A DNA stretch of 64,000 nucleotides from Halomonas ventosae. GTDB taxonomy: Bacteria > Pseudomonadota > Gammaproteobacteria > Pseudomonadales > Halomonadaceae. Where the stretch lies: NCBI RefSeq assembly GCF_004363555.1, contig NZ_SNZJ01000027.1, positions 1 through 64,000 of the forward strand. Reading direction: 5' to 3'. Below the pieces are notes generated by a model that ran no database searches, was not told the DNA's origin, and was given only the letters and a program-made list of their open reading frames with translations. Shown here piece after piece: positions 51,834 to 64,000 of this stretch (the stretch's first letter is position 1; every line of letters starts with the position of its first letter). Both the position numbers and the translations under genes were made by a program.

Positions 51834-52877
51834 TCAAATATACATCGTGGTTTCATCCTGAAGATGCATGGCACCACTACCTCGCTCAGCAGTGACACTT
51901 GGCGTTTCATCAAAGCGTCTCCGGTAGGCACGTGTGAAGTGCGCCGGTTGGGTAAAACCGGTGGCCAGGGCTGCCTCGGTCACGAGGCAGCGGCTATCGG
52001 CCAACAATTGGCGTGCGCGGTCAAGACGCATCCCCAGATAGCACTGCTGCGGGGTCTCCCCGAAGTAGCGCTGAAACAGTCGCGTCAACTGACGCTGAGA
52101 CTGCCCCACCAGCAGGCACACCTCGGGGATCGGTAGCGCCTGGGCCAAGTTGGCCTCCATCACGGCCAGCGTCCGCACCACGCTGCGTGGTAGCTCCCCA
52201 TACCGGTGTTGCTGACTACCTCCACCATCGCCTCGCGCCCTTTCATGAACGAGCTGCCGCCCCACGGCGTCGGCCAAGGCCGGCCCGTAGGCTCGCTCTA
52301 TCCACTCCAGCATCATGTCGATGCTCGCTGCCCCACCCGAGCCCGTCAGCCGCGTGGTATCGAATTCAAAGCGCGCTGGACTGATCTCCAACTCGGGGAA
52401 CTCGAGACGAAAGGCGGGCACGCTCTCCCAGTGCAGTGCCACCCGGTGCCCCTCCAGCACTCCCGCCCTCGCCAGAATGAAGGGGGCGGTGTCCAGCCCA
52501 CCCAGCCAGCCGCCATGGGCAGCGATGCGCCGCAACACGGCGCGATCCTGGAAGCGTACCGTCGCCTCCGCCTCGTAGGAGGAAACGACCATCAGGCGCG
52601 TGATGTCCTCCAGCGACTCCAGCGCGCCGTCCACGTCGATGCGAACGCCATTGCTGGCCACCACCGCTTCACCGTCCGCCGAGAGTAGCCGCCAGGCAAA
52701 GAGGTCACGGCCGAAGCGATTGGCCACACGCAGCGGCTCAAGCAGGCAGAACAGGGTCAGCATGGAGAAACGCGGAACCAGCCAAACGTTGAGGCTATGT
52801 TCGGCCTGCTCCGGCGTCAGCAGCGGCGGGGAATCGGGGCGTGGATAGGGCCACGCCGTTTCTGGAAAGTCTGTCAT
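51834..52877 (-). CDS. GlxA-family AraC-type regulator (GbdR/ArgR/CdhR-like), divergent from the oxygenase operon
   Basis: The 347-residue regulator has an N-terminal DJ-1/PfpI-like sensing domain (about 28-205; SMLTLFCLLEPLRVANRFG, LMVVSSYEAEATVRF, GGLDTAPFILARAGVLEGHRVALHWES) and a C-terminal AraC double helix-turn-helix (LPIPEVCLLVGQSQRQLTRLFQRYFGETPQQCYLGMRLDRARQLL and VTEAALATGFTQPAHFTRAYRRRF). This class includes sensors of glycine betaine, carnitine and arginine in Pseudomonas. It diverges from the plus-strand operon with only 102 bp between starts, so it is the likely controller. The start at 52877 is the best available but lacks a strong ribosome site. Confidence 0.88.
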   Translation of the reverse strand: MTDFPETAWPYPRPDSPPLLTPEQAEHSLNVWLVPRFSMLTLFCLLEPLRVANRFGRDLFAWRLLSADGEAVVASNGVRIDVDGALESLEDITRLMVVSSYEAEATVRFQDRAVLRRIAAHGGWLGGLDTAPFILARAGVLEGHRVALHWESVPAFRLEFPELEISPARFEFDTTRLTGSGGAASIDMMLEWIERAYGPALADAVGRQLVHERARGDGGGSQQHRYGELPRSVVRTLAVMEANLAQALPIPEVCLLVGQSQRQLTRLFQRYFGETPQQCYLGMRLDRARQLLADSRCLVTEAALATGFTQPAHFTRAYRRRFDETPSVTAERGSGAMHLQDETTMYI

Positions 52878-52979
52878 GGCGAACAGGATCAAGTCTGTGG
52901 CCAATTTAATCAAGTGATACCCGGCAGCGGCGGTTATCGTGGAACGCGACCCCGTAGCACAGTCCGTGGAGACGCCGCC

Positions 52980-54098
52980 ATGACACACGTCACTCCCCTG
53001 GCCAATCGCCGACGCCTGGCCATCGAACACCACGGCCAGCGTGGTGAATTCGCTGCCCTATGGCTGCGCGAACGTAGCCCGGATGCCGAGACCCTGGACC
53101 CACGCACCGGCCAGCGCCTGATCGAGGCCGCCGAGCTGCCGCTGGACCTGAGCATCGAGTCCGCCGAGGTGGCGGAAGGCCGGCTTCGCCTGTGCTTCAG
53201 CGACGGTCATTGCACCGCTTTCGACCTCGCGGCGCTGTTCGACGATCAGGCCAGCGATCCTCCCCGGAAACTCTGGGATGCAGCCGGCGCACCACGCCCC
53301 GAGGCCGACTTCAGCGCTGCCCTGGCGGACGACCAGGCGCTGTCGGATATGCTCGAGGCGCTGCATCGCGATGGCTTCGTGATCGTCTCCGGGGTTCCCA
53401 TCGAGACCGACGGCATGCAGCCGTTGATCGACCGTATCGGTCCGCTACGGCGCACCAACTGGGGGGGCATCGCCGACGTAAAGTCGGTGGCCGACGCCTA
53501 CGACCTGACAATGACCCAGCGGGGCCTGGAGCCGCACACGGACAACCCCTACCGCGACCCCATTCCCGGCTACATCTGGCTGCACTGCCTCACCAACGCC
53601 GCCGAGGGCGGTGACAGCACCTTGGCCGATGGCTTCATGGCGGCCCGGTTGCTGCGCGAGCGAGATCCCGCTGCGTACGCTTGCCTTACCCGGGTCACCC
53701 CCGGCTTCCGCTATCGCGACGCTGACACCCACCTGGAGAGCGAGGGGCCACTGATCGAGCTGGACAGCCACGGCGACCCGGTTCGCGTGCGCTATTCCAA
53801 CCGCACCGAGAGAGTTCCGGCCCTGCCCGCAGAAGAGCTAGAGACGTTCTACGCCGCTCGCCGGGCCTTCTATCAGCTGATCACAGGCCAGGAACTGACG
53901 CTGCAGCTCAAGCTCGATCCGGGCCAGATGTTGATCATGGATAACTATCGCCTGCTGCACGGCCGCAGCGCCTTCCAGCTCGCCGATGGCGTTCGTCACC
54001 TGCGCCAGGGCTACGTCGACCGCGACAGCACGACCAGCCGCCGCCGCGTGCTGCGCCAACGACTGGCCACTTCTCAAGCCCAAGGAGTCCCCGCATGA
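52980..54098 (+). CDS. Gamma-butyrobetaine-hydroxylase/TmpA-like Fe(II)/2-oxoglutarate oxygenase
   Basis: The 372-residue protein has an N-terminal DUF971-like domain (about 1-90) and a TauD-type jelly roll. Iron ligands are His186 and Asp188 in LEPHTDNPYRDPIPGYIWLHCL and His327 in LLHGRSAF, with 2OG-binding Arg near 339-342. It resembles BBOX1 and TmpA, the oxygenase that hydroxylates 2-trimethylaminoethylphosphonate. The LWLRERSPDAETLDP segment lacks the zinc-binding cysteines of BBOX1. GGAG precedes the ATG. The stop overlaps the start of the HD gene (ATGA). The true substrate is unknown: a cationic acid such as gamma-butyrobetaine, trimethylaminoethylphosphonate or 4-guanidinobutyrate would fit the neighbours. 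Confidence 0.82.
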   Translation: MTHVTPLANRRRLAIEHHGQRGEFAALWLRERSPDAETLDPRTGQRLIEAAELPLDLSIESAEVAEGRLRLCFSDGHCTAFDLAALFDDQASDPPRKLWDAAGAPRPEADFSAALADDQALSDMLEALHRDGFVIVSGVPIETDGMQPLIDRIGPLRRTNWGGIADVKSVADAYDLTMTQRGLEPHTDNPYRDPIPGYIWLHCLTNAAEGGDSTLADGFMAARLLRERDPAAYACLTRVTPGFRYRDADTHLESEGPLIELDSHGDPVRVRYSNRTERVPALPAEELETFYAARRAFYQLITGQELTLQLKLDPGQMLIMDNYRLLHGRSAFQLADGVRHLRQGYVDRDSTTSRRRVLRQRLATSQAQGVPA

Positions 54099-54682
54099 AT
54101 CAGGCCCGTTTCCGCCACTTTGGCGAGGCCCAGCGCGACGACTGGGCACTGATCGATGACCGTTTCCGCGACTATGTCGCCGATGCGCCGCGCCGGGTGC
54201 TCGACCATTTGCACCGCCTGGCCGGCGACCATCACGGCTACCCGGTGGATCGCTACGAGCACAGCCTGCAGACGGCAACCCGGGCGCTGCGCGACGGCGC
54301 CGACGAGGAGATGATCGTCTGCGCGCTGCTCCACGACATCGGCGACGACCTGGCGCCGGCCAACCATGCCGAGATTGCCGCGGCCATCCTCGAGCCCTTC
54401 GTCGACCCGCTAAACGCCTGGATGATTCGCCACCACGAGCTCTTCCAGGGCTATCACTACCGCCACTTTTTCGGCCAGGATCCTCACGCCCGCGAGCAGT
54501 ACCGCGACCATCCGGCCTATGAACGCACCGTGCGCTTCTGCGACCACTGGGACCAGGCCAGCTTCGACCCCGACTACGACACCCTCCCCCTCGAACACTT
54601 CGTGCCCATGGTGGAGAAGGTGCTGGGACGTACACCCCGCGGCGGTCTACCCGAGCCGCTCTCCGAGGAGGCACTGCGATGA
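54095..54682 (+). CDS. HD-domain oxygenase-like protein (PhnZ/TmpB-type)
   Basis: The 195-residue HD protein aligns its metal ligands with PhnZ: His56 in YEHSLQ, His80-Asp81, His91 in NHAE, His114 in IRHHE and Asp150 in CDHWD, a diiron set. Tyr54-Glu55 before the first His is also a PhnZ/TmpB feature. The His at HD+4 in PhnZ is absent (HDIGDD). PhnZ and TmpB oxidatively cleave 1-hydroxyphosphonates after a 2OG oxygenase acts, matching the preceding gene. It overlaps both neighbours by ATGA. A plain phosphohydrolase function is the alternative. Confidence 0.78.
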   Translation: MNQARFRHFGEAQRDDWALIDDRFRDYVADAPRRVLDHLHRLAGDHHGYPVDRYEHSLQTATRALRDGADEEMIVCALLHDIGDDLAPANHAEIAAAILEPFVDPLNAWMIRHHELFQGYHYRHFFGQDPHAREQYRDHPAYERTVRFCDHWDQASFDPDYDTLPLEHFVPMVEKVLGRTPRGGLPEPLSEEALR

Positions 54683-56277
54683 GCCGGACCTGCGCCCAAC
54701 AGCTGCTGCACCTGCTGGAAGCCTATGGCGTGGATACCGCCTTCGGCATCCCCGGGGTGCATACCATCGAGCTCTACCGCGCCCTGGGCGACAGCGCGAT
54801 CCGCCATGTCACCCCGCGCCACGAACAGGGTGCCGGCTTCATGGCCGATGGCTACGCCCGGGCCAGCGGCCGTCCGGCGGCCTGCTTCATCATCACCGGC
54901 CCCGGCATGACCAATATCGCCACCGCCATGGGCCAGGCCCTGGCCGATTCGGTGCCGATGCTGGTGATCTCCAGCGTCAACCGCCGTGACACCCTGGGGC
55001 GCGGTCAGGGGCGCCTGCATGAGCTGCCCAGTCAGCAACAGACTCTGGCCGGCGTCAGTGTCTTCAGCCACACCCTGCATGATCCGGCGGCACTACCGGA
55101 GATCCTGGCCCGCGCCTTCGCGATCTTCCGCGGCGCGCGTCCGGGACCGGTGCACATCGAGATTCCCATCGACCTGTTCGATGCTCCGGTCCCCGAGTCT
55201 GCGCCGCGCCCGATCGAGGTATTTCCCCCGGCGCCCGCCCCGGCCGCCATTACTCGAATCGCCGAATGGATGACCAGCGCCGAGCGCCCCCTGCTGCTGC
55301 TGGGCGGGGGCTGCGTCGCCGCTCCTGACGCCGCCCGCGCACTGGTGGAGCGCCTGCAGGCCCCGACTCTTACCACCATCAATGCCAAGGGCGTGCTGGG
55401 CCAGGATCACCCCCAGGATCTGGGGGCCACCGCCAGCCTGCCCGCCGCGCGTCGGCTGGCGGCCGAGGCCGACGTCATCCTGGCGCTGGGCACCGAGCTT
55501 GGCGAGACCGACTATGACCTGGTGTTCGATGAGGGCTTCCGCCTCACCGGGCGGCTGATCCGGGTGGACATCGACCCCCAGCAGCTGGGCCGCAACCACG
55601 CCGCCGATCTGGCCCTGGTGGCCGACGCCGGCGAGACCCTGACCGCCCTGTTACGGGCGCTGCCCGAGGCTCGCGCCGACGATGGTCGTGCCGCGGCGGT
55701 TCGCCGTGAGCTGGCCTTGGCCAAAGACCCCGAGCTGACACCCTATGTGCCACTCTACGCCACCCTGCAGGCAACGCTTCCCGAGGCGATCCTGGTAGGT
55801 GATTCCACCGGGCCGGTTTACGCCGGCAACTTTCTCGCCTCCTTGCCCGCGCCACGTCGCTGGTTCAATGCCGCCACGGGCTACGGCACCCTCGGCTATG
55901 GCCTGCCCGCCTCCCTGGGCGCCGCCCTCGCCTGTCCGCAGCGGCCCGTCGTGGCCTTGGTCGGCGACGGTGGCCTGCAGTTCGTGATCGGCGAGCTGGC
56001 CACCGCCCGCGACCTCGACCAGCCCGTGGCAGTGGTGATCTGGAACAACCAGGGCTACGACGAAATTCGCCGCTACATGGCCATGAACGAAGTGCCCCAA
56101 CTTGGCGTCGACCTGACGGCACCGGATTTCGCCGGACTGGCCGACGCCTATGCCTGCCGCTATCTGAAGGCGGGCGATCCGACGACCCTCGGCGACGCCC
56201 TCGGGCAGCTGGGCGCGGCGCACTCACCGCTGCTCATCGAGGTCGATGCCGAGGCCTGGATGGCAGCCACTCGATGA
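54679..56277 (+). CDS. aruI: Thiamine-diphosphate 2-ketoarginine decarboxylase (AruI)
   Basis: The 532-residue enzyme has the three-domain acetolactate-synthase fold: the PYR domain with GVDTAFGIPGVHTIELYRALGDSAIRHVTPRHEQGAGFMADGYARASG (catalytic Glu49), a central domain, and the PP domain with GDGGLQFVIGELATARDLDQPVAVVIWNN binding Mg-ThDP. GIPGVHTxELYR and the rest of the first 120 residues match my memory of AruI of Pseudomonas, which decarboxylates 5-guanidino-2-oxopentanoate to 4-guanidinobutyraldehyde. With aruH and an aldehyde dehydrogenase downstream this completes arginine transamination. Its start overlaps the HD gene stop. Confidence 0.87.
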   Translation: MSRTCAQQLLHLLEAYGVDTAFGIPGVHTIELYRALGDSAIRHVTPRHEQGAGFMADGYARASGRPAACFIITGPGMTNIATAMGQALADSVPMLVISSVNRRDTLGRGQGRLHELPSQQQTLAGVSVFSHTLHDPAALPEILARAFAIFRGARPGPVHIEIPIDLFDAPVPESAPRPIEVFPPAPAPAAITRIAEWMTSAERPLLLLGGGCVAAPDAARALVERLQAPTLTTINAKGVLGQDHPQDLGATASLPAARRLAAEADVILALGTELGETDYDLVFDEGFRLTGRLIRVDIDPQQLGRNHAADLALVADAGETLTALLRALPEARADDGRAAAVRRELALAKDPELTPYVPLYATLQATLPEAILVGDSTGPVYAGNFLASLPAPRRWFNAATGYGTLGYGLPASLGAALACPQRPVVALVGDGGLQFVIGELATARDLDQPVAVVIWNNQGYDEIRRYMAMNEVPQLGVDLTAPDFAGLADAYACRYLKAGDPTTLGDALGQLGAAHSPLLIEVDAEAWMAATR

Positions 56278-56312
56278 TCGCGACCGACAATTCACACACG
56301 AGGTTTCCTGAC

Positions 56313-57254
56313 ATGCGTAGATCCGCTCTCCTGACCGCCCTGGCGCTCACCAGCCTACTGCCGCTCACTGCACAGGCGGCACAGGACGCCAGCATCGAGC
56401 TGCGCCTGGTAGTGCCTCCCTGGCCAGGGGTGACGGTGAAGTCGGAGATTTTCGCCCAGCTGGCCGAACCACTCGGCTACCGGGTCGAGGCCCTGGAGAT
56501 CAGCTCGACGGTGGGCTACCAGACCCTGCAGAGCGGCGAAAGCGACGCCTTTCTGGCCGGTTGGCTGCCTTCCCAGCAGAAAAGCTACGACGCCGCCATG
56601 GAGCAGGGCAACATCGTCGACCTGGGCAACAACGTGACCGGCGCCCGGATGGGCTTCGCGGTACCAGGCTACGTCCATGATGCCGGCGTCACCCACGCCA
56701 AACAGCTGGCGGACCCGGACATTCGCGAGCGCTTCGGTGCCGAGATCTATTCCATCGAAAGTGGCTCCACGGTAAGCGACCACCTCCACGGCGCCGTCGA
56801 GGCCGATACCTACGGGCTCAGCGGCTGGACCCTGCGGGAGTCCTCGACGCCGGGGATGCTGGCCGAGGTGGATGCCGCCAGGCGCGATGAGCGCTGGATC
56901 CTCTTCTACGGCTGGACGCCCCACTGGATGGCACCAGTGCATGACATGGAGATCCTCGACGATCCGGCTGGGGTCTTCGGCGAAGACAATGGTCGCAGTG
57001 ATGTGCGCACCATCGTGGCCCGTGACTACCAAGAGTCCCACCCCAACATGGCCCGCCTGCTGGACCAATTCGAACTGACCGCCGACGAACAGAGCGCGTT
57101 CATCCAGGCGTACAGCCTTGAAGAGGGCGAACTGGCGAGCGTCGCCCGCGAGTGGCTGCAGGCCCATCCCGATCGGGTGGCCAGCTTCATCGACGGCGTC
57201 AACACCCACGACGGCGAGCCTGGCCTGGCGGCGGTTCGCGCCAGCCTGAAGTGA
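56313..57254 (+). CDS. Betaine-type ABC substrate-binding protein (OpuAC/ProX-like)
   Basis: The 313-residue protein has a Sec signal (MRRSALLTALALTSLLPLTAQA) and an OpuAC-type domain with aromatic-rich binding loops: LVVPPWPGVTVKSEIFAQL, SDAFLAGWLPSQQ, and ILFYGWTPHWMAPVHDMEILDDP. Such loops form the Trp cage for glycine betaine, choline or similar quaternary ammonium groups. No betaine-type permease or ATPase is nearby; the ABC genes downstream are polar amino-acid type with their own binding protein. GAGG nine bases upstream supports ATG 56313 over the ATG overlapping aruI. Confidence 0.85.
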   Translation: MRRSALLTALALTSLLPLTAQAAQDASIELRLVVPPWPGVTVKSEIFAQLAEPLGYRVEALEISSTVGYQTLQSGESDAFLAGWLPSQQKSYDAAMEQGNIVDLGNNVTGARMGFAVPGYVHDAGVTHAKQLADPDIRERFGAEIYSIESGSTVSDHLHGAVEADTYGLSGWTLRESSTPGMLAEVDAARRDERWILFYGWTPHWMAPVHDMEILDDPAGVFGEDNGRSDVRTIVARDYQESHPNMARLLDQFELTADEQSAFIQAYSLEEGELASVAREWLQAHPDRVASFIDGVNTHDGEPGLAAVRASLK

Positions 57255-57263
57255 TACTTACCG

Positions 57264-57282
57264 GGCCGGCGGGAAGCCGGCC
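57264..57282 (+). terminator. Hairpin between the binding-protein gene and aruH
   Basis: Seven-base arms GGCCGGC / GCCGGCC with a 5-nt loop lie nine bases past the stop, with no T-run. It may give partial termination and a higher level of the upstream binding-protein message. Confidence 0.45.
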
Positions 57283-57309
57283 TCAGCGCTTCCGAGAGTG
57301 AGGAATGCT

Positions 57310-58521
57310 ATGCGCTATTCACGACTGACCGACCGCATCGCCGGCGAGGGGGCTGCGGCCTGGGATATCCACTACCGCGCCCTGGAACGTCAAGCCGCCG
57401 GCGAGGAGATCACGGTGCTCTCGGTGGGCGACCCCGACTTCAATACCCCGGCGCCCATCGTGGAGAGCGCCGTCGACAGCCTGCGCGGCGGCGCCACCCA
57501 CTACCCCGACGTGCAGGGCAAGCTGGCGCTGCGCCAGGCCATTGCCGCCGACTATCGCCGCCAGGGCCTCGAGGTGGGGCCTGATAACGTCATTGTCATG
57601 GCCGGCGCCCAGTGCGGTCTCTATGCCGCAGCCCAGTGCCTGCTCGACCCCGGCGACGAGGTACTGGTGCCCGAGCCCGGCTATGTCACCTATGAAGCGG
57701 TACTACGCGCCACCGGCGCCGAACTGGTGCAGGTGCCGCTGCGTGGCGAGGCGGACTTCCACCTGGAGCCGGCAGCCCTGGAGGCGGCTATCACCCCGCG
57801 GACCCGCGCCATCCTGCTCAATAGCCCCCACAATCCCACAGGACAGCTGATCGACGCGGCGAAATGGGAGGCCATCGCCGAGCTGTGCCGTCGTCACGAC
57901 CTGTGGCTGATCTCCGACGAGGTCTATGCAGAGCTGATCTTCGAGGGCCAGCATCTCTGCCCCGCCACACTGGCTGGCATGGCCGAGCGCACTGTGGTGA
58001 TCAGCAGCCTCTCCAAATCCCATGCCATGACCGGCTGGCGTCTGGGCTGGATTGTGGGCCCCGAACCGCTGATCCACCATCTGACCCACCTGGCGCTCTG
58101 CATGCTCTATGGCTGCCCGGACTTCATCCAGGACGCCGCCTGCGCCGCTCTCGAGGCCCCTCCCGCCGAGCTCGGCGCGATGCGTGAAGTATACCGCGCA
58201 CGCCGCGACACGGTCTGTGAGGCGCTCGCCGAGAGCCCCGCGGTCACGGCGATCCGCCCGCCGGCGGGAATGTTCCTGATGGTGGATATTCGTGCGACCG
58301 GCCTCTCCTCGCAGGCCTTCGCCGATCGCCTGCTCGATGAGGAAGGTATCTCGGTGCTCTCCGGCGAGGCCTTCGGGCCCTCGGCGGCGGGCTTCGTCCG
58401 TCTCAGTCTTACCGTGGAGGCCGAGCGCCTGGCCGCGGCCAGCCACCGCCTGGCGGCCTGCGCCGAACGTGCTCGTGCCGAACTGTCACCCACCCAGGCC
58501 TCGGAGGCCTCTTGCCTATGA
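57310..58521 (+). CDS. aruH: Arginine:pyruvate transaminase (AruH)
   Basis: The 403-residue class I aminotransferase shows [22 protein letters not shown] and the PLP lysine (Lys236) in [20 protein letters not shown]. The start [28 protein letters not shown] and the tail [20 protein letters not shown] are very close to Pseudomonas AruH as remembered. It converts arginine and pyruvate to 2-ketoarginine and alanine. AGGA precedes ATG 57310. It overlaps the ABC ATPase gene by ATGA, so arginine uptake and the first catabolic step are coupled. Confidence 0.9.
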
Positions 58522-59315
58522 CATCATCGCTAGAGCTCTCCCCCTCTCCGCAGGCCGCCACCGCCCCGGCGGTAGTGGCCGACCACCTGATCAAGCATTT
58601 TGGCGATCTGGAGGTGCTCAAGGGCGTCTCCCTCGAGGTTCCCGAAGGCACCGTCACGTCCATCATCGGCGCCAGCGGCTCCGGCAAGAGCACCCTGCTG
58701 CGCTGCATGAACCTGCTGGAAAGACCCGACCAGGGCGAGTTGGCGATTGCGGATGAGGCGATTCGTTTCACCCGCAATTCCCAGGGCGACATCATCGGTC
58801 TGGACCGGCGGCAGCTACAGCGACTGCGCGCCAAGGTCACCATGGTCTTCCAGCAGTTCAATCTCTGGCCTCACCTGACCGTGCTGGGCAACGTCATCGA
58901 GGCCCCCATGCGAGTCAAGGGGCTCTCCCGCAAGCGGGCCACCGCGCTGGGCGAGCACTACCTCGAGCGGGTCGGCATGGCCGACCGGCGCGACGCCTAC
59001 CCTGCCTTCCTCTCCGGCGGCCAACAGCAGCGCGTGGCCATCGCCCGTGCGCTGGCCATGGAGCCACGCCTGCTGCTCTTCGACGAACCCACCTCGGCAC
59101 TGGACCCGGAACGGGTCAACGAAGTGCTCGGAGTGATCCGCGGCCTCGCCGACGAGGGCCGCACCATGCTGCTGGTCACCCACGAGATGCACTTTGCCCG
59201 CGAGGTCTCCGACCAGCTGGTCTATCTCGACCAGGGCCGCATCGCCGCCTCGGGCACCCCGGATGACGTCTTCGATGACCCCCGCTGCCGCCAGTTCATG
59301 GCGCCGGCAGCCTGA
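58518..59315 (+). CDS. Polar amino-acid ABC transporter ATP-binding protein
   Basis: The 265-residue ATPase has Walker [10 protein letters not shown], a Q-loop [12 protein letters not shown], signature [15 protein letters not shown], Walker [14 protein letters not shown] and the switch His in VTHEMHFA. It matches the HisP/GlnQ class; the spacing of the [11 protein letters not shown] insert resembles HisP/AotP. It energises uptake with the permeases and binding protein that follow. Arginine is the likely cargo from context with aruH. The start overlaps aruH. Confidence 0.92.
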
Positions 59316-59348
59316 ACGCTCCACCAACCATAACGACAGGAGAAGTCG

Positions 59349-60122
59349 ATGAAATTTCCGATGATGATTGCCACCGCGGTAACCGCCCTGGGCCTTGGCC
59401 AAGCTGCCCAGGCCGGTGATCCCCTCCAGGTGGGCATCTCCGGCGAACCCTATCCGCCCTTCACCTACAAGGCCGCCAGCGGCGACTGGACCGGCTTCGA
59501 GGTGGAACTGGCTCACGCGATCTGCGCGGCCATGGAGCGCGAGTGCGAGATCGCGCCCACTGGCTGGAGCGGCATCATCCCCTCGCTCAAGGCCGGCCGC
59601 ATCGACATGATCATGAATTCCATGTCGATCACCGAGAAGCGCCAGCGGGTCATCGACTTCACCCGCCCCTACTACTTCACCCCGGGCTCATACGTGGCGG
59701 CCAGCGAGCGCGACCTCGACATCCCCGACGGCCTGGACGGCCTGGTGATGGGCGTGCAGAGCGCCACCACCAACGCCACCTATGCACGGCGCGAACTGCG
59801 CGACAGCGGCGTGGAGATCCGCCTTTACGACCAGGCGGAGCAGGTCAACAACGACCTGCTGGCCGGGCGGCTCGACGTGATCCTGGCCGACGAGATCGCC
59901 ATGGTGCAGTTCCTCGAGCGCGACGAGGCCGAAGGTTTCGAGATCAAGGCCACCGCCCCGCAACACGCGGCCTATGGCGAGGGTATCGGCATCGGTCTGC
60001 GCCAGGAAGACGACGCCCTGGAAGCCGACCTCAACGAGGCAGTCGCCGCGGTGATTGAAGACGGCACCTGTGCCAGCCTTTCCGAGGAGTACCTGGGCAC
60101 CGACGTCTGCGTCTACGACTGA
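59349..60122 (+). CDS. Polar amino-acid ABC transporter substrate-binding protein
   Basis: The 257-residue family 3 binding protein has a Sec signal cut near AQAG, then LQVGISGEPYPPFTYKAASGDWTGFEVELAHAICAAM, GIIPSLKAGRIDMIMNSMSITEKRQRVIDFTRPYY and a C-terminal cysteine pair region (GTCASLSEEYLGTDVCVYD). It resembles lysine/arginine/ornithine binding proteins; ligand preference is inferred from the aruH/aruI context. AGGAGAAGTCG precedes the ATG. A GC-rich hairpin separates it from the permease genes. Confidence 0.9.
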   Translation: MKFPMMIATAVTALGLGQAAQAGDPLQVGISGEPYPPFTYKAASGDWTGFEVELAHAICAAMERECEIAPTGWSGIIPSLKAGRIDMIMNSMSITEKRQRVIDFTRPYYFTPGSYVAASERDLDIPDGLDGLVMGVQSATTNATYARRELRDSGVEIRLYDQAEQVNNDLLAGRLDVILADEIAMVQFLERDEAEGFEIKATAPQHAAYGEGIGIGLRQEDDALEADLNEAVAAVIEDGTCASLSEEYLGTDVCVYD

Positions 60123-60146
60123 GGCTTAACCAGCCAGTCATCGCAT

Positions 60147-60171
60147 CCCCCGACGCTGCCGGCGTCGGGGG
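60147..60171 (+). terminator. Hairpin between binding-protein and permease genes
   Basis: Ten-base arms CCCCCGACGC / GCGTCGGGGG with a 5-nt loop lie 24 bases past the binding-protein stop. Such intercistronic hairpins often keep binding proteins more abundant than permeases. Confidence 0.6.
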
Positions 60172-60204
60172 CGCTTCGTCCTGTGACCAAGGAAAGACTC
60201 GACA

Positions 60205-60912
60205 ATGACTGCCATGACACCGGAGGGGCTCGGCGACTGGGCCGGGCCCATCCTGAGCGGCGCCCTGACCACGGTGCAGATCGCCGTGCTGGCCTACGCC
60301 ATCGGCCTGGTGCTGGGGTTGCTGGGGGCCGGCGCAAAGCTCAGCCCCTGGGCGCCCTTACGTGGCGTGGCCACCGCCTACTCGACGCTGATCCGGGCGG
60401 TACCCGAGCTGCTGCTGATCATTCTGCTCTACTATGCCGGTCCCCAGGCACTGGATGCCTTGCTGGCACGCTTGGGAATCGCCGGTGCCGTGCAGATCAC
60501 CGGCTTCGCCACTGCCGTGGGCGTGCTGGCCTTCGTCCAGGGGGCCTACATGACCGAGGTGTTCCGCGGCGCCATCCTCGCCATCCCGCAGGGCCAGCTG
60601 GAGGCCGCGGACGCCTTCGGCTTCTCGCGCTGGACGCGCTTTCATCGCTTCATACTGCCGGCCATGTTGCCCAACGCCCTGCCGGGCATGTCCAACCTGT
60701 GGCTGATCCTGATCAAGGACACCGCCCTGATCAGCGTGATCGGCTTCAACGAGCTGTTCTTCACCATCCAGCAAGCCGCTGCCAGCAGCCGCGCCTACTT
60801 CCTCTTTTATGCCGCCGCCGGCGTCATCTACCTGCTGATGACCCTGACCTCCACGGCGCTGTTTGCCCGCCTCGAGCGCTATGTGCGCCGTGGCCAACCC
60901 ACGGAGGCCTGA
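60205..60912 (+). CDS. Amino-acid ABC transporter permease, first subunit
   Basis: The 235-residue permease of the HisMQ class has five hydrophobic helices with TTVQIAVLAYAIGLVLGLL, STLIRAVPELLLIILLYY and the cytoplasmic EAA-like loop EAADAFGFSRWTRFHRFILPAMLPNALPG. It forms the membrane channel with the next gene product. AAGGA lies upstream; an in-frame ATG at 60214 is an alternative start. One base separates its stop from the next start. Confidence 0.91.
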   Translation: MTAMTPEGLGDWAGPILSGALTTVQIAVLAYAIGLVLGLLGAGAKLSPWAPLRGVATAYSTLIRAVPELLLIILLYYAGPQALDALLARLGIAGAVQITGFATAVGVLAFVQGAYMTEVFRGAILAIPQGQLEAADAFGFSRWTRFHRFILPAMLPNALPGMSNLWLILIKDTALISVIGFNELFFTIQQAAASSRAYFLFYAAAGVIYLLMTLTSTALFARLERYVRRGQPTEA

Positions 60913-60913
60913 G

Positions 60914-61639
60914 ATGGACTTTTCCTGGCTGAGTGATCCCTTCTATCAGGGCTACCTGTGGGAGGGCTTCGTCAATACCCTGTGGCTGCTGCTGGTCTCT
61001 TCAGTGGGCGGTCTGATCCTCGCCGTGGGGGTGGCCCTGGCTCGACTTCGCGGACCGCAGCCTCTCGTCTGGCTGGCCTGGGCCTTCACGACTATGATCC
61101 GTGGCACCCCGCTGCTCGTGCAGCTGTTCTTCTTCTACTACGGGGTGGGACGCCTGCTGGAAGGGGTACCGGGCATGCGTGACAGCGTCCTCTGGCCGTT
61201 ACTGAGCGATCCCTTCTTCTTCGGCGCCCTGACCTTCATCCTCAGTGTCGGCGCCTACTCCGGCGAGGTGATCCGTGGCGCCATGCAGAGCGTGCCTCGC
61301 GGCGAGCTGGAGGCCGGACGCGCCTTCGGTCTCTCCGGTTTCCAGGTGCTCTATCGGCTGTGGCTGCCACGGGCCATCCAGCTTTGCCTGCCGACGCTGA
61401 CCGGCGAGATGATCCTGCTGCTCAAGTCGGTACCCCTGGTCTCCACCATCGCCCTGATGGACCTGCTGCAAGCCGCCAATATCATTCGCGACGAGACCTT
61501 TCTGGTCTACGAGCCCCTGCTGCTGATCGCCGGCATCTACCTGGCCACCACCATCGTGCTGACCCTGCTGCTGCGCCTGGTGGAACTCAATTTCCCCGGC
61601 ATGCGCCCGACCCGGCGCCGCTGGTTGCCCATTCGCTGA
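60914..61639 (+). CDS. Amino-acid ABC transporter permease, second subunit
   Basis: The 241-residue partner permease carries FVNTLWLLLVSSVGGLILAVGVALAR, TTMIRGTPLLVQLFFFYYGVG and the EAA-like loop EAGRAFGLSGFQVLYRLWLPRAIQLCLPTL, close to HisM/AotM-type subunits. GGAGG in the end of the preceding gene serves its ATG at 60914. Together with the ATPase and family 3 binding protein it completes one importer. Confidence 0.91.
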   Translation: MDFSWLSDPFYQGYLWEGFVNTLWLLLVSSVGGLILAVGVALARLRGPQPLVWLAWAFTTMIRGTPLLVQLFFFYYGVGRLLEGVPGMRDSVLWPLLSDPFFFGALTFILSVGAYSGEVIRGAMQSVPRGELEAGRAFGLSGFQVLYRLWLPRAIQLCLPTLTGEMILLLKSVPLVSTIALMDLLQAANIIRDETFLVYEPLLLIAGIYLATTIVLTLLLRLVELNFPGMRPTRRRWLPIR

Positions 61640-61654
61640 GCAAGACGAGGCCTT

Positions 61655-63100
61655 ATGCACGTATTGAACGAGCAGTTTATCGACAATGCCTGGGTAGACA
61701 GCCACGCCGAGGCTCGCCTCCCGCTGCTGGACCCGTTTCATGAGGCGGTGATCGGAGAGGTGACCCGCGGCGACCCCTTGGATGTCGATGCGGCGGTGGC
61801 CGCCGCACGCCGCGCCTTGCCCGACTGGCGCGACACTCCGGAAGCCCGCCGCGGCGAGCACCTGGAGGCCATCGCCGCGGGGCTCGAGGCGCGCCGCGAG
61901 GGCCTGGCCGAACTGTCGAGTCGCAACAGCGGCAAGCCCCTGGCCGAGGCCCACCAGGACCTGGACGACGCCATCGCCTGCTATCGCTACTACGCCACCC
62001 AGGCCCGGGCTCTGGGCAAGCGCCAGGGCCAGGCCGATGCGAGCGGCATCGAGGGGTTTTCGGCACGCCGTTACTGGGATCCCGTCGGCGTGGTGGGGCT
62101 GATCACTCCCTGGAACTTCCCCCTGGTCAGCAGCGCCTGGAAGCTGGCTCCCGCGCTCGCTGCCGGCTGCACGGTGGTGTTCAAGCCCTCCGAGGTCACG
62201 CCCCTGCCAGAGCGGGTGCTGGCGGAGGTCGTGATTGAGGCGGGGCTGCCCCCGGGGGTGGTCAATCTGCTGCACGGCGACGGCGAAGGGATCGGCGCGC
62301 CCTTGAGCCGCCACCCTGGCATCGACAAGTTCTCCTTCACCGGCAGCAACCCGGTGGGCGAAAAGGTGATGCAGGCCGCCGCCAGCGGGGTGCGGCCCGT
62401 CTCCCTGGAGTTGGGCGGCAAGTCGCCGATCCTGGTCACCGAAGATGCCGACCTGGAGCTCACCTGCGACCTGGTGATGGCCGGCATCTGCTATAACGCC
62501 GGCCAGATGTGTTCTGCCACCAGCCGGTTACTGGTGCACGAGCGCCTGGCGGACGACCTGTATGCGGCCATCGACGCCGAAATGGCCGCACTGCGTCCGG
62601 GCGCCCCCCTGGCCGAGGGGACAGATATGGGGCCGCTGGTCAGCGCCATGCAGCGCGATCGGGTGCAACGCTATCTGGCCCTGGCCGACCGGGAGGGTCT
62701 GCACAGCGAGACGCCCGCCGTTGCCCTGCCCGAGCAAGGGTTCTTCGTGACGCCGCGCCTCTACCGTGACGTGCCGCCCAGCAGCCGGTTATGGCGAGAG
62801 GAGATCTTCGGGCCAGTTCTCTGTGCCCGGCGGGTCGCCGACGACGAGGAGGCCATCGCCCTGGCCAACGACAGCGATTTCGGCCTGGCAGCCACCGTGG
62901 TGGCCGGTGACCCGGACCGCGCCGAGGCCATCGCACGGCGCCTGGAGGTGGGCAACGTCTGGTGCAACTGCGATCAGGTGGCCCCGCCCCACTCAAGCTG
63001 GGGCGGCATGAAGCGCAGCGGCATCGGCCGCGAACTCGGACAGACAGGACTCGACGCCTACCTCGAGCCCAAGCGCATCACCTGCCGGGCAGCGACGTGA
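61655..63100 (+). CDS. Aldehyde dehydrogenase, aminoaldehyde/betaine-aldehyde type
   Basis: The 481-residue NAD(P)-dependent enzyme has PWNFPLV (Asn154), the cofactor motif FTGSNPVGEK, LELGGKSP with Glu252 and the catalytic Cys286 in NAGQMCSATSRLLVH. The last motif is typical of betaine-aldehyde and omega-aminoaldehyde dehydrogenases. In this operon the natural substrate would be 4-guanidinobutyraldehyde from AruI, giving 4-guanidinobutyrate; trimethylamino-aldehydes are also possible. Its stop overlaps the GTG of a small membrane protein gene. Confidence 0.9.
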   Translation: MHVLNEQFIDNAWVDSHAEARLPLLDPFHEAVIGEVTRGDPLDVDAAVAAARRALPDWRDTPEARRGEHLEAIAAGLEARREGLAELSSRNSGKPLAEAHQDLDDAIACYRYYATQARALGKRQGQADASGIEGFSARRYWDPVGVVGLITPWNFPLVSSAWKLAPALAAGCTVVFKPSEVTPLPERVLAEVVIEAGLPPGVVNLLHGDGEGIGAPLSRHPGIDKFSFTGSNPVGEKVMQAAASGVRPVSLELGGKSPILVTEDADLELTCDLVMAGICYNAGQMCSATSRLLVHERLADDLYAAIDAEMAALRPGAPLAEGTDMGPLVSAMQRDRVQRYLALADREGLHSETPAVALPEQGFFVTPRLYRDVPPSSRLWREEIFGPVLCARRVADDEEAIALANDSDFGLAATVVAGDPDRAEAIARRLEVGNVWCNCDQVAPPHSSWGGMKRSGIGRELGQTGLDAYLEPKRITCRAAT

Positions 63101-63372
63101 GCTGCCGGACTGCTTCCGGGTGGTGTCTGACGGTGATCGGCCTGGTCGCCATTGGGCTGCTGTTGGCCAGTGGCCTCACCACACGGCAGACCACGTGGTT
63201 CGCCGCCGCCCTGGCGCTGAGCGGCTCCATCCCGGTGATGACCGCCGGGGTGGTGCTAGCACTGTGTTGCGAGATCCGCCGAGCCACACGCAACGCCCAG
63301 CGAGCCAAACGGCGCGACCCTGCGGGACGCCGCCGCGGGCCGGTGCCTGGTCTATCCTTTCCCGAACTATGA
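63097..63372 (+). CDS. Small membrane protein between the aldehyde dehydrogenase and a GlxA regulator
   Basis: Starting from GTG 63097, which overlaps the preceding stop as GTGA, the 91-residue product has two hydrophobic segments (about 10-26 and 31-57) and a strongly basic tail (RRATRNAQRAKRRDPAGRRR). No family is recognised. It overlaps the following regulator by ATGA. The tight coupling on both sides argues for a real gene, but no separate ribosome site is clear and the frame could be incidental. Confidence 0.5.
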   Translation: MSCRTASGWCLTVIGLVAIGLLLASGLTTRQTTWFAAALALSGSIPVMTAGVVLALCCEIRRATRNAQRAKRRDPAGRRRGPVPGLSFPEL

Positions 63373-64000
63373 GACTCCAGCCTCCCGACACCGCCCCCGA
63401 GCGCATCGGCTTCCTGCTGCTGCCGCGCTTCGCCATGGTGGCCTTCTTCTCGGCCATCGAGCCGCTGCGCATCGCCAACCGCATCGGCGGCCGGACGCTG
63501 TTCGAGTGGGAGCTGATCAGCCGCGACGGCAAGCCGGTGGTGGCCTCCAACGGCATGCCCCTGGCGACCACCTGCGCGTTGGCCGAGGCGCCGATCACGC
63601 CGAGCCTGGCGGTATGTGCCAGCTTCGAGCCCGAGCACGGCATCGATGACGAGCTGACCGCCTGGCTGCGCGAGCGAGCCGCAGCCGGCTGCGTGCTGGG
63701 CGGCATGGATACCGGCTGCTATGCGCTGGCCGCCGCCGGGCTGCTCGATGACCAGACAGTGACCCTGCACTGGGAGTCGCTGCCCGACTTCCGCGCTCGG
63801 TTTCCCCGAGTCGACGCCGTAGAGTCACTCTTCGAGGTCACCCCGGAGGGATTCTCCTGTGCCGGCGGCAGCGCCGCCATCGACATGAGCCTCGACCTGA
63901 TCCGGCGCCGTCATGGCAAGGCCCTGGCCGACCGGGTCCGGGAGCAGCTGATCCACGATCAGGGGCGCCAACCGGCCAGCCGCCAGCGTGGCAGTCCGGG
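63369..64000 (+). CDS. GlxA-family AraC-type regulator, truncated by the window end
   Basis: About 210 residues are visible. They form the DJ-1/PfpI-like domain: IGFLLLPRFAMVAFFSAIEPLRIANRIGG, WELISRDGKPVVASNG, CVLGGMDTGCYALAAAGLLDDQTVTLHWESLPDFRARFP and CAGGSAAIDMSLDLIRRRHG, then the lead-in to the AraC domain. The pattern is that of ArgR/CdhR/GbdR-type regulators. Being last in the arginine-uptake and transaminase run it is a good candidate for its arginine-responsive activator. It differs in sequence from the GlxA protein at 51834-52877. Confidence 0.87.
   Translation, partial: MRLQPPDTAPERIGFLLLPRFAMVAFFSAIEPLRIANRIGGRTLFEWELISRDGKPVVASNGMPLATTCALAEAPITPSLAVCASFEPEHGIDDELTAWLRERAAAGCVLGGMDTGCYALAAAGLLDDQTVTLHWESLPDFRARFPRVDAVESLFEVTPEGFSCAGGSAAIDMSLDLIRRRHGKALADRVREQLIHDQGRQPASRQRGSP

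Follow-up and report, generated by a model that had tools for sequence, protein, structure and literature searches.

A conserved oxygenase-HD gene pair in an AruI-containing operon of Halomonas ventosae, apparently related to TmpA/TmpB and possibly acting on a methylated amino acid

TmpA/TmpB of Leisingera caerulea converts trimethylaminoethylphosphonate to glycine betaine and phosphate, and PhnY*/PhnZ, whose hydroxylase PhnY* is PhyH-type, converts 2-aminoethylphosphonate to glycine and phosphate. The arginine transaminase route is encoded by AruH, AruI, KauB and GbuA. In its available text, a 2020 review names three HD-domain oxygenases, MIOX, PhnZ and TmpB (PMC8177086). The locus described here lies in a stretch of 64,000 nucleotides of Halomonas ventosae (Halomonadaceae; genome of 4.02 Mb), referred to as the window, which forms the start of contig C27 (NZ_SNZJ01000027.1; 64,848 bases). 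In an operon spanning 52980-63100 of the window, genes for a TmpA-like 2-oxoglutarate (2OG) oxygenase and a small HD protein precede a homologue of AruI, and a first-pass annotation had proposed that this pair acts either on 4-guanidinobutyrate formed from arginine or on trimethylaminoethylphosphonate.

The operon was confirmed with the gene order, strands and overlaps first described, and is a real, conserved variant of the two-oxygenase kind that differs from both of these proposals. Its oxygenase-HD pair is best read as a probable relative, not a member, of TmpA/TmpB. For the operon as a whole we tentatively propose, at a probability of roughly 0.4, a role in the catabolism of a cationic methylated α-amino acid, at best guess N6-trimethyllysine, toward gamma-butyrobetaine and carnitine. 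The proposal builds on direct observation of gene order, conservation, protein families, residue changes and AruI paralogy.

The first gene (52980..54098, + strand) encodes a BBOX/TmpA-type 2OG-Fe(II) oxygenase, termed type B below (PF02668, PF06155; PDB TmpA 6npb, E=1.1e-63), and the second (54095..54682, +) an HD-domain protein (PF01966) that is putatively an oxidative, C-C cleaving oxygenase. The third (54679..56277, +) encodes an AruI paralogue, a thiamine diphosphate-dependent 2-keto acid decarboxylase. Open reading frame (ORF) coordinates place 4-base ATGA overlaps at the oxygenase/HD and HD/AruI junctions, bearing out the coupling claimed earlier, and also at the junction of AruI with the following OpuAC-type gene.

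The HD protein falls short of the curated NCBIfam cut-offs of both the TmpB model (45.9 vs 300 bits) and the PhnZ model (43.2 vs 214.6 bits); its earlier description as PhnZ/TmpB-like holds for the likeness of the pair to TmpA/TmpB, but by these cut-offs the protein is neither TmpB nor PhnZ. Only PhnZ and TmpB were found as PDB relatives by profile (E≤0.01), and an AlphaFold2 model of the protein reached a pLDDT of 93.8 and a pTM of 0.87. All six diiron ligand positions are invariant in 81 of 81 rows of the HD family. Numbered by PhnZ/TmpB positions, Glu27 is replaced by Tyr, His62 by Asp and Lys108 by Gln in every one of these rows, Tyr24 of the YxxE motif is gone from 80 (L087 keeps it), Arg158 is exchanged for Asp (40 rows), Glu (36), Ala (4) or His (1), and an Arg at position 53 of the family is new and invariant. 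We take Lys108 and Arg158 to be the basic anion-site residues of PhnZ/TmpB, and likewise presume a role for His62 there. Comparison rows, 22 nearest to TmpB and 17 nearest to PhnZ-like proteins, with some repeat fetches of one locus among them, retain the PhnZ/TmpB letters at these sites, apart from a Cys in place of Tyr24 in one case and a single row with a gap. The LQGG loop was absent from 17 of 17 HD family rows in one alignment. The YxxE substrate loop of PhnZ/TmpB is described in the available text of PMC8177086.

The HD protein is evidently a member of a large, uncharacterised sister family of PhnZ/TmpB. This family was seen in more of 398 sampled Pseudomonadota genomes (59, at E≤1e-20) than was TmpB over its curated cut-off (13), the two thresholds being different. 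In 29 loci newly fetched from this phylum sample (L181-L209, about 1.5 kb per side), the HD gene adjoins a BBOX-type oxygenase in 3 and a PhyH-type 2OG oxygenase in 6 (L193, L194, L198, L199, L203 and L209; PhyH-type by Pfam scan of one, which the other five match by tblastn), with neither seen in 20. The occurrence of the family beside two dissimilar types of 2OG oxygenase, with ligands kept in 81/81 rows, is counted as apparent support for the proposed reading. Asp or Glu at position 158 had been considered as an ammonium site and was dropped as positive evidence, as the same signature is present in HD genes with no detected oxygenase neighbour.

The window oxygenase passes the TmpA model NF049936 (438.4 vs 400 bits), and misses both the trimethyllysine dioxygenase (TMLD) model TIGR02410 (158.3 of 268.3) and the BBOX model (264 of 415). 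Three HD-partnered oxygenases of the SAR11/Alteromonas type (type A) that were scanned lie below the TmpA cut-off (SAR11 341.5, Marinomonas 327.1, a halomonad 355.6). In a tree of 41 rows, the HD-partnered oxygenases (19 rows) form one clade and TmpB-partnered TmpA (6 rows) a separate one, each with support of 100/100; the former also stands apart from the BBOX-like rows and from the one match to the trimethyllysine dioxygenase model, whose row is prominent among the long branches flagged in this tree. A likely pitfall for annotation is that the NCBIfam TmpA equivalog model is passed by at least one protein, that of the window, which falls with its relatives outside the TmpB-partnered clade.

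According to the available text of PMC9296572, TmpA N187, N287 and R288 contact the phosphonate, and human BBOX uses N191. These sites were compared in 73 HD-partnered oxygenase rows of both types (72 distinct loci, the window having been fetched twice; 65 adjacent to the HD gene by a 400-base rule). The N187 site holds Asp in 73 of 73 rows, and also in the three oxygenases of the phylum sample and in L139, the sole match over the trimethyllysine dioxygenase cut-off in the 398 genomes. It holds Asn in 21 of 21 TmpA rows (from 13 genomes with TmpB over its cut-off), and Ser (32), Asn (19) or Thr (1) in 52 BBOX-like rows. Arg288 is retained in all 73 HD-partnered rows; N287 is Asn in the window oxygenase, and some TmpA rows themselves carry Ala. 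The counterpart of N191 in TMLH is Asp231, which is presumed to bind the α-ammonium of trimethyllysine (PMC7764450, available text), and the window oxygenase has Asp at this site. The positions of the TMLH aromatic cage (Y217, W221, Y234) read W/A/M in the window type, and F/F/Y, an intact cage, in the SAR11/Alteromonas type; in type B, the Halomonadaceae type, the residues are W161, A165 and M178, with Y174 and Y198 gained. The HD gene is present in two or three copies in some Halomonadaceae genomes, and the two such genomes examined closely, G405 (L171, L172) and G435 (L177, L178), hold oxygenase-HD pairs of both types. This co-occurrence makes a difference in substrate between the types probable.

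Conservation of the locus was assessed by a scan of genome contigs with the HD protein, from which the best 80 of 98 confirmed relatives were kept (39 Halomonadaceae loci, 41 other). Neighbours were counted as tblastn matches anywhere in loci of up to about 20 kb, several of which are cut by contig ends, and many of the SAR11 loci are near-copies of each other. The nearest named HD relative found is that of Billgrantia montanilacus (95%). An oxygenase gene lies directly upstream of the HD gene in 38 of the 39 Halomonadaceae loci, the exception being L039, where the HD gene is at the contig edge. These loci further contain an ATP-binding cassette (ABC) binding protein (37), the aminotransferase (34), AruI (33), OpuAC (33), aldehyde dehydrogenase (ALDH; 29), a BBOX-like gene (27), class II aldolase (17), carnitine dehydrogenase (16) and BKACE (14). 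The linkage of the pair with an AruI homologue in Halomonadaceae, as claimed in the first-pass annotation, is thus conserved, and the counts for the oxygenase, AruI and the ABC binding protein across the 39 loci indicate that the arrangement is not due to chance. Of the remaining 41 loci, 32 have the oxygenase gene immediately ahead of the HD gene; BBOX-like genes and carnitine dehydrogenase each occur in 16, BKACE in 17, acetoacetate-CoA ligase in 21 and AruI in none. In SAR11 loci such as L053, the BBOX-like, carnitine dehydrogenase and BKACE genes share a strand, and the ALDH, acetoacetate-CoA ligase, oxygenase and HD genes lie on the opposite one; in Marinomonas (L050), class II aldolase, a GhrA-like gene, oxygenase and HD are followed by BBOX-like and carnitine genes. 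The earlier link to cationic or quaternary substrates is supported. Genes resembling glyoxylate reductase and hydroxyacid dehydrogenase, neither of them over its curated cut-off, adjoin the module in L050 and L086. The aldolase recurring beside the HD gene is of the PRK07044 type (L014, 13161-13895; 17 of the 39 Halomonadaceae loci; also L048, L050 and L051). Three soil gammaproteobacterial bins (L052, L078, L082) carry, close to the pair, genes resembling dimethylargininase that fall short of the curated cut-off where they were scanned.

The window AruI passes the curated AruI cut-off (NF005712, 771 vs 500 bits). A second AruI in the same genome (C14:95502-97106) lies in a row of arginase-family gene, transporter, AruI and ALDH (C14:93017-97112 and on; L130); the window copies are 66% (AruI) and 64% (ALDH) identical to those on C14. 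The arginase-family protein passes the agmatinase model TIGR01230 (206.6 over 174.3) and, judged solely by its neighbours AruI and ALDH, would be a guanidinobutyrase (GbuA-like); the row is likely this genome's arginine/4-guanidinobutyrate route. That no guanidinobutyrase gene is present, as first noted, is therefore true of the visible part, but absence of gbuA from the genome is rejected by this GbuA/agmatinase-like gene beside the second AruI.

In a sample of 121 Halomonadaceae genomes, the HD family was found in 62 (83 copies), AruI in 74 (108 copies) and a GbuA-like gene (E≤1e-90) in 85. An HD gene is found no more than 500 bases from 36 of the AruI copies, and a GbuA-like gene no more than 12 kb from 67; 5 copies have neither nearby and 0 of 108 have both. 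Linkage to GbuA was taken as the distance between start coordinates for matches of at least 69% identity, 12 weaker rows (47-50%) being dropped. The supposition that gbuA is missing where aruI, oxygenase and HD genes adjoin failed: a GbuA-like gene is present in 33 of the 36 genomes with HD-AruI adjacency, and a separate AruI-GbuA pair in 32 (G408, with only a weak GbuA match, was counted as lacking it). In a 29-row tree including 20 of the 36 HD-linked rows, HD-linked AruI form one group (support 100/98) apart from GbuA-linked AruI, and the window AruI appears to be an old, dedicated, HD-linked paralogue. No AruI match at E≤1e-150 was obtained in 11 of the 62 HD-bearing genomes, among them G405 and G308, in which a type-B pair is present; the pair can thus do without AruI, and a requirement for AruI was rejected on this ground. 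An apparent in-frame TGA in AruI copies proved, in the four that were checked, to be just the stop codon at the end of the gene.

The genes downstream of AruI follow the order given earlier, with a betaine-type binding protein, an aminotransferase, an amino acid ABC importer and an ALDH. The OpuAC/ChoX-type substrate-binding protein (56274..57254, +; PF04069; TIGR03414 228 bits of 379) has no permease gene alongside; in an alignment to 2reg and 2b4l its Trp residues match those of ChoX, which we take to be ligand-site residues. It is followed by a class I aminotransferase (57298..58521, +; PF00155; closest PDB relatives aromatic and aspartate aminotransferases), for which no NCBIfam cut-off was reached among the best 25 matches listed. 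The importer for polar or cationic amino acids comprises an ABC ATPase (58512..59315, +; HisP model 311 bits of 466), a family 3 binding protein (59349..60122, +; TIGR01096 210 of 256; nearest in the PDB the octopine, histidine, nopaline and LAO binding proteins), a HisQ-like permease (60205..60912, +; PF00528; PRK15135 175 bits of 319) and a second permease (60914..61639, +; start hand-picked in ORF 60863-61639; conserved across relatives). The last gene encodes an ALDH resembling betaine aldehyde and aminobutyraldehyde dehydrogenases (61655..63100, +; PF00171; TIGR01804 435 bits of 669).

Divergent from the operon is a GlxA/AraC-type, GbdR-like regulator (51834..52877, -; PF12833/PF00165) that misses the GbdR model NF052371 (225 bits, cut-off 480); 102 bases separate both start codons, that of the regulator having been picked by hand within a longer ORF. 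A second GlxA/AraC-type regulator, recognised by its translation (63369..64000, on to contig base 64334, +), precedes a BBOX-like gene whose start lies near contig base 64436 and which the contig end (64848) truncates; in relatives the same GlxA-BBOX order adjoins the operon. Three other contigs (C2, C3 and C4; L091-L093) open with TauD-family C-terminal fragments; together with the contig end inside the BBOX-like gene, this suggests that the assembly may have fragmented at several near-identical copies. A promoter and terminator scan gave one match of each kind, at or below chance.

For the proposed catabolic role, we infer the substrate, the site of hydroxylation, the chemistry of the oxygenases and the role of AruI as follows. 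The ABC importer would take up the amino acid, the TmpA-like oxygenase would hydroxylate it next to the α carbon, and the HD diiron oxygenase would cleave the bond to the hydroxylated carbon, yielding a carboxylate, both steps by analogy with TmpA/TmpB and TMLH chemistry. In the case of trimethyllysine the products would be gamma-butyrobetaine, glyoxylate and ammonia, and gamma-butyrobetaine could serve as substrate for a BBOX-type enzyme, for example that encoded next door, to be passed through the carnitine pathway to glycine betaine. Aminotransferase, AruI and ALDH, related to the arginine pathway and seen here only in Halomonadaceae, may constitute an accessory arm that shortens this amino acid, or one related to it, to an acid with one carbon fewer. 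Import by LAO/opine-type ABC and OpuAC proteins fits this scheme, and further support comes from the separate clade of the HD-partnered oxygenases, from their Asp at the N187 site and retained Arg288, and from the BBOX-like and carnitine genes close to the pair in many loci. More specifically, the pair may lead from trimethyllysine, or a similar methylated amino acid, to gamma-butyrobetaine without an aldolase, in organisms from SAR11 to Halomonas. Its members would be a hydroxylase resembling TMLH and an HD diiron oxygenase of a new class, which cleaves C-C instead of C-P bonds and belongs to a sister family of PhnZ/TmpB pairing with BBOX- and PhyH-type hydroxylases; this we regard as possible but doubtful.

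Several observations weigh against the amino acid route. The window oxygenase passes the TmpA model. Of the neighbouring proteins scanned, three BBOX-like proteins are below the curated BBOX cut-off (328.6, 311.1 and 375.8 of 414.75), both BKACE proteins are below theirs, and one of three carnitine dehydrogenases passes (L035, 436 over 414), so that part of the case for a carnitine context depends on homology below the cut-offs; in 11 of the 39 Halomonadaceae loci, BBOX-like, carnitine dehydrogenase and BKACE genes were all undetected within the fetched stretch. With the loss of cage aromatics (F/Y to A165 and M178), trimethylammonium binding is not assured for the Halomonadaceae type, and the SAR11/Alteromonas type is the better match for the trimethyllysine reading. 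The HD genes of the 20 of 29 phylum-sample loci with neither oxygenase type seen next door carry the HD signature as well, which hence argues against a phosphonate and not for any one substrate. The direct route also leaves the aminotransferase-AruI-ALDH arm with no explained role beyond accessory decarboxylation.

This last difficulty would not arise if the enzymes acted in sequence: aminotransferase, AruI and ALDH would make delta-valerobetaine (5-trimethylaminovalerate) from trimethyllysine, and the pair would α-hydroxylate it and remove one carbon to give gamma-butyrobetaine, or hydroxylation would come first, then aminotransferase-AruI-ALDH, with the HD protein removing the carboxyl carbon. 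Each operon enzyme would then be used once, and the end product would be the BBOX substrate. Bacteria are reported, in the available text of PMC8976029 and PMC11773067, to make delta-valerobetaine from trimethyllysine with other enzymes, the known route being DavBA. However, AruI is missing from 11 of the 62 HD-bearing Halomonadaceae genomes, including two with a type-B pair, and from all 41 loci outside the family, and Asp at the N187 site suggests that the α-amino group is still present; we consider such a sequence rather unlikely.

The guanidino proposal of the first-pass annotation, in which AruH, AruI and ALDH would make 4-guanidinobutyrate and the pair would hydroxylate and cleave this or a related guanidino acid, draws on the identity of AruI and ALDH to paralogues beside a GbuA-like gene, on the closeness of the ABC binding protein to octopine, nopaline and LAO proteins, and on the altered cage of type B. 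Yet the genome holds a separate row of GbuA/agmatinase-like gene, AruI and ALDH on C14, most genomes with HD-AruI adjacency likewise carry a GbuA-like gene, HD-linked AruI forms a group of its own and can be absent, type-A pairs lack AruI in SAR11, Alteromonas and others, and the pair is accompanied by the OpuAC protein and BBOX-like/carnitine genes. With this evidence the route is improbable in general, and it can be said with good confidence that the pair does not act on 4-guanidinobutyrate itself.

There is likewise only a slim chance of the HD protein being a hydrolase, or anything else but an oxygenase, with a purely regulatory coupling to the 2OG oxygenase. Most HD proteins are phosphohydrolases (PMC8177086, available text), the substrate residues of PhnZ/TmpB are gone, and many family members have no detected oxygenase neighbour; against this stand the complete set of dinuclear ligands, PhnZ and TmpB as the only PDB relatives by profile, and the repeated pairing with two unrelated 2OG oxygenase types. 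Catabolism of methylated arginine, with dimethyl- or monomethylarginine in place of trimethyllysine, could be suggested by the sub-cut-off dimethylargininase-like genes near type-A pairs in the three soil bins and by the paralogy of AruI, but those bins carry type A and the window type B, and OpuAC, BBOX-like and carnitine genes suit quaternary amines better, leaving it very unlikely. A true TmpA/TmpB pair degrading trimethylaminoethylphosphonate, as also proposed earlier, is the least plausible, and action on a phosphonate can be set aside with high confidence: the oxygenase passes the TmpA model and retains Arg288 and Asn287, but it belongs to a separate clade with Asn187 changed to Asp, and its HD partner misses the TmpB cut-off, has Tyr, Gln and Asp/Glu/Ala/His for E27, K108 and R158 throughout the family, and lacks the LQGG loop in the 17 rows aligned.

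A literature search that left out most subscription journals and supplements found no report of the oxygenase-HD pair in the text available to it. The changed HD active site and the hydroxylase partners open a possible new chemistry of C-C bond cleavage to direct test. If true for trimethyllysine, the proposed route would supply an aerobic bacterial step linking methylated protein residues to the carnitine and glycine betaine pool in marine and saline habitats.

Among known systems, the Arctic SAR11 betaine/carnitine genomic island resembles the locus in uniting two BBOX genes, carnitine dehydrogenase, BKACE, ALDH and class II aldolase in one region; its main text, as available, names no HD protein or oxygenase pair, and the term 'HD domain' is absent from it (PMC12421898). 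With the arginine transaminase route the operon shares AruI and ALDH homologues, a cationic amino acid importer and an aminotransferase, but the GbuA-like-AruI-ALDH row of this genome lies elsewhere, on C14, and the window AruI is a distinct, HD-linked paralogue. TMLH and BBOX have the fold family and Fe-binding residues in common with the window oxygenase, and TMLH also the Asp at its D231 site; unlike them, the window oxygenase misses both models, falls in a separate clade and has a translationally coupled HD partner. PhnY*/PhnZ follows the same two-step logic with an HD diiron protein, but the PhnZ residues are not kept in the window HD protein, and the PhyH-type partners found elsewhere in the HD family would form a counterpart of PhnY*/PhnZ whose HD protein is not PhnZ. 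In the TmpA/TmpB loci fetched, a BBOX-type 2OG hydroxylase is followed, in the same gene order as here, by a small HD protein with diiron ligands; what sets the present pair apart is an HD protein far under the TmpB cut-off, with the Glu of YxxE, K108 and R158 replaced, an oxygenase of another clade with Asp in place of N187, and a neighbourhood of carnitine and amino acid genes.

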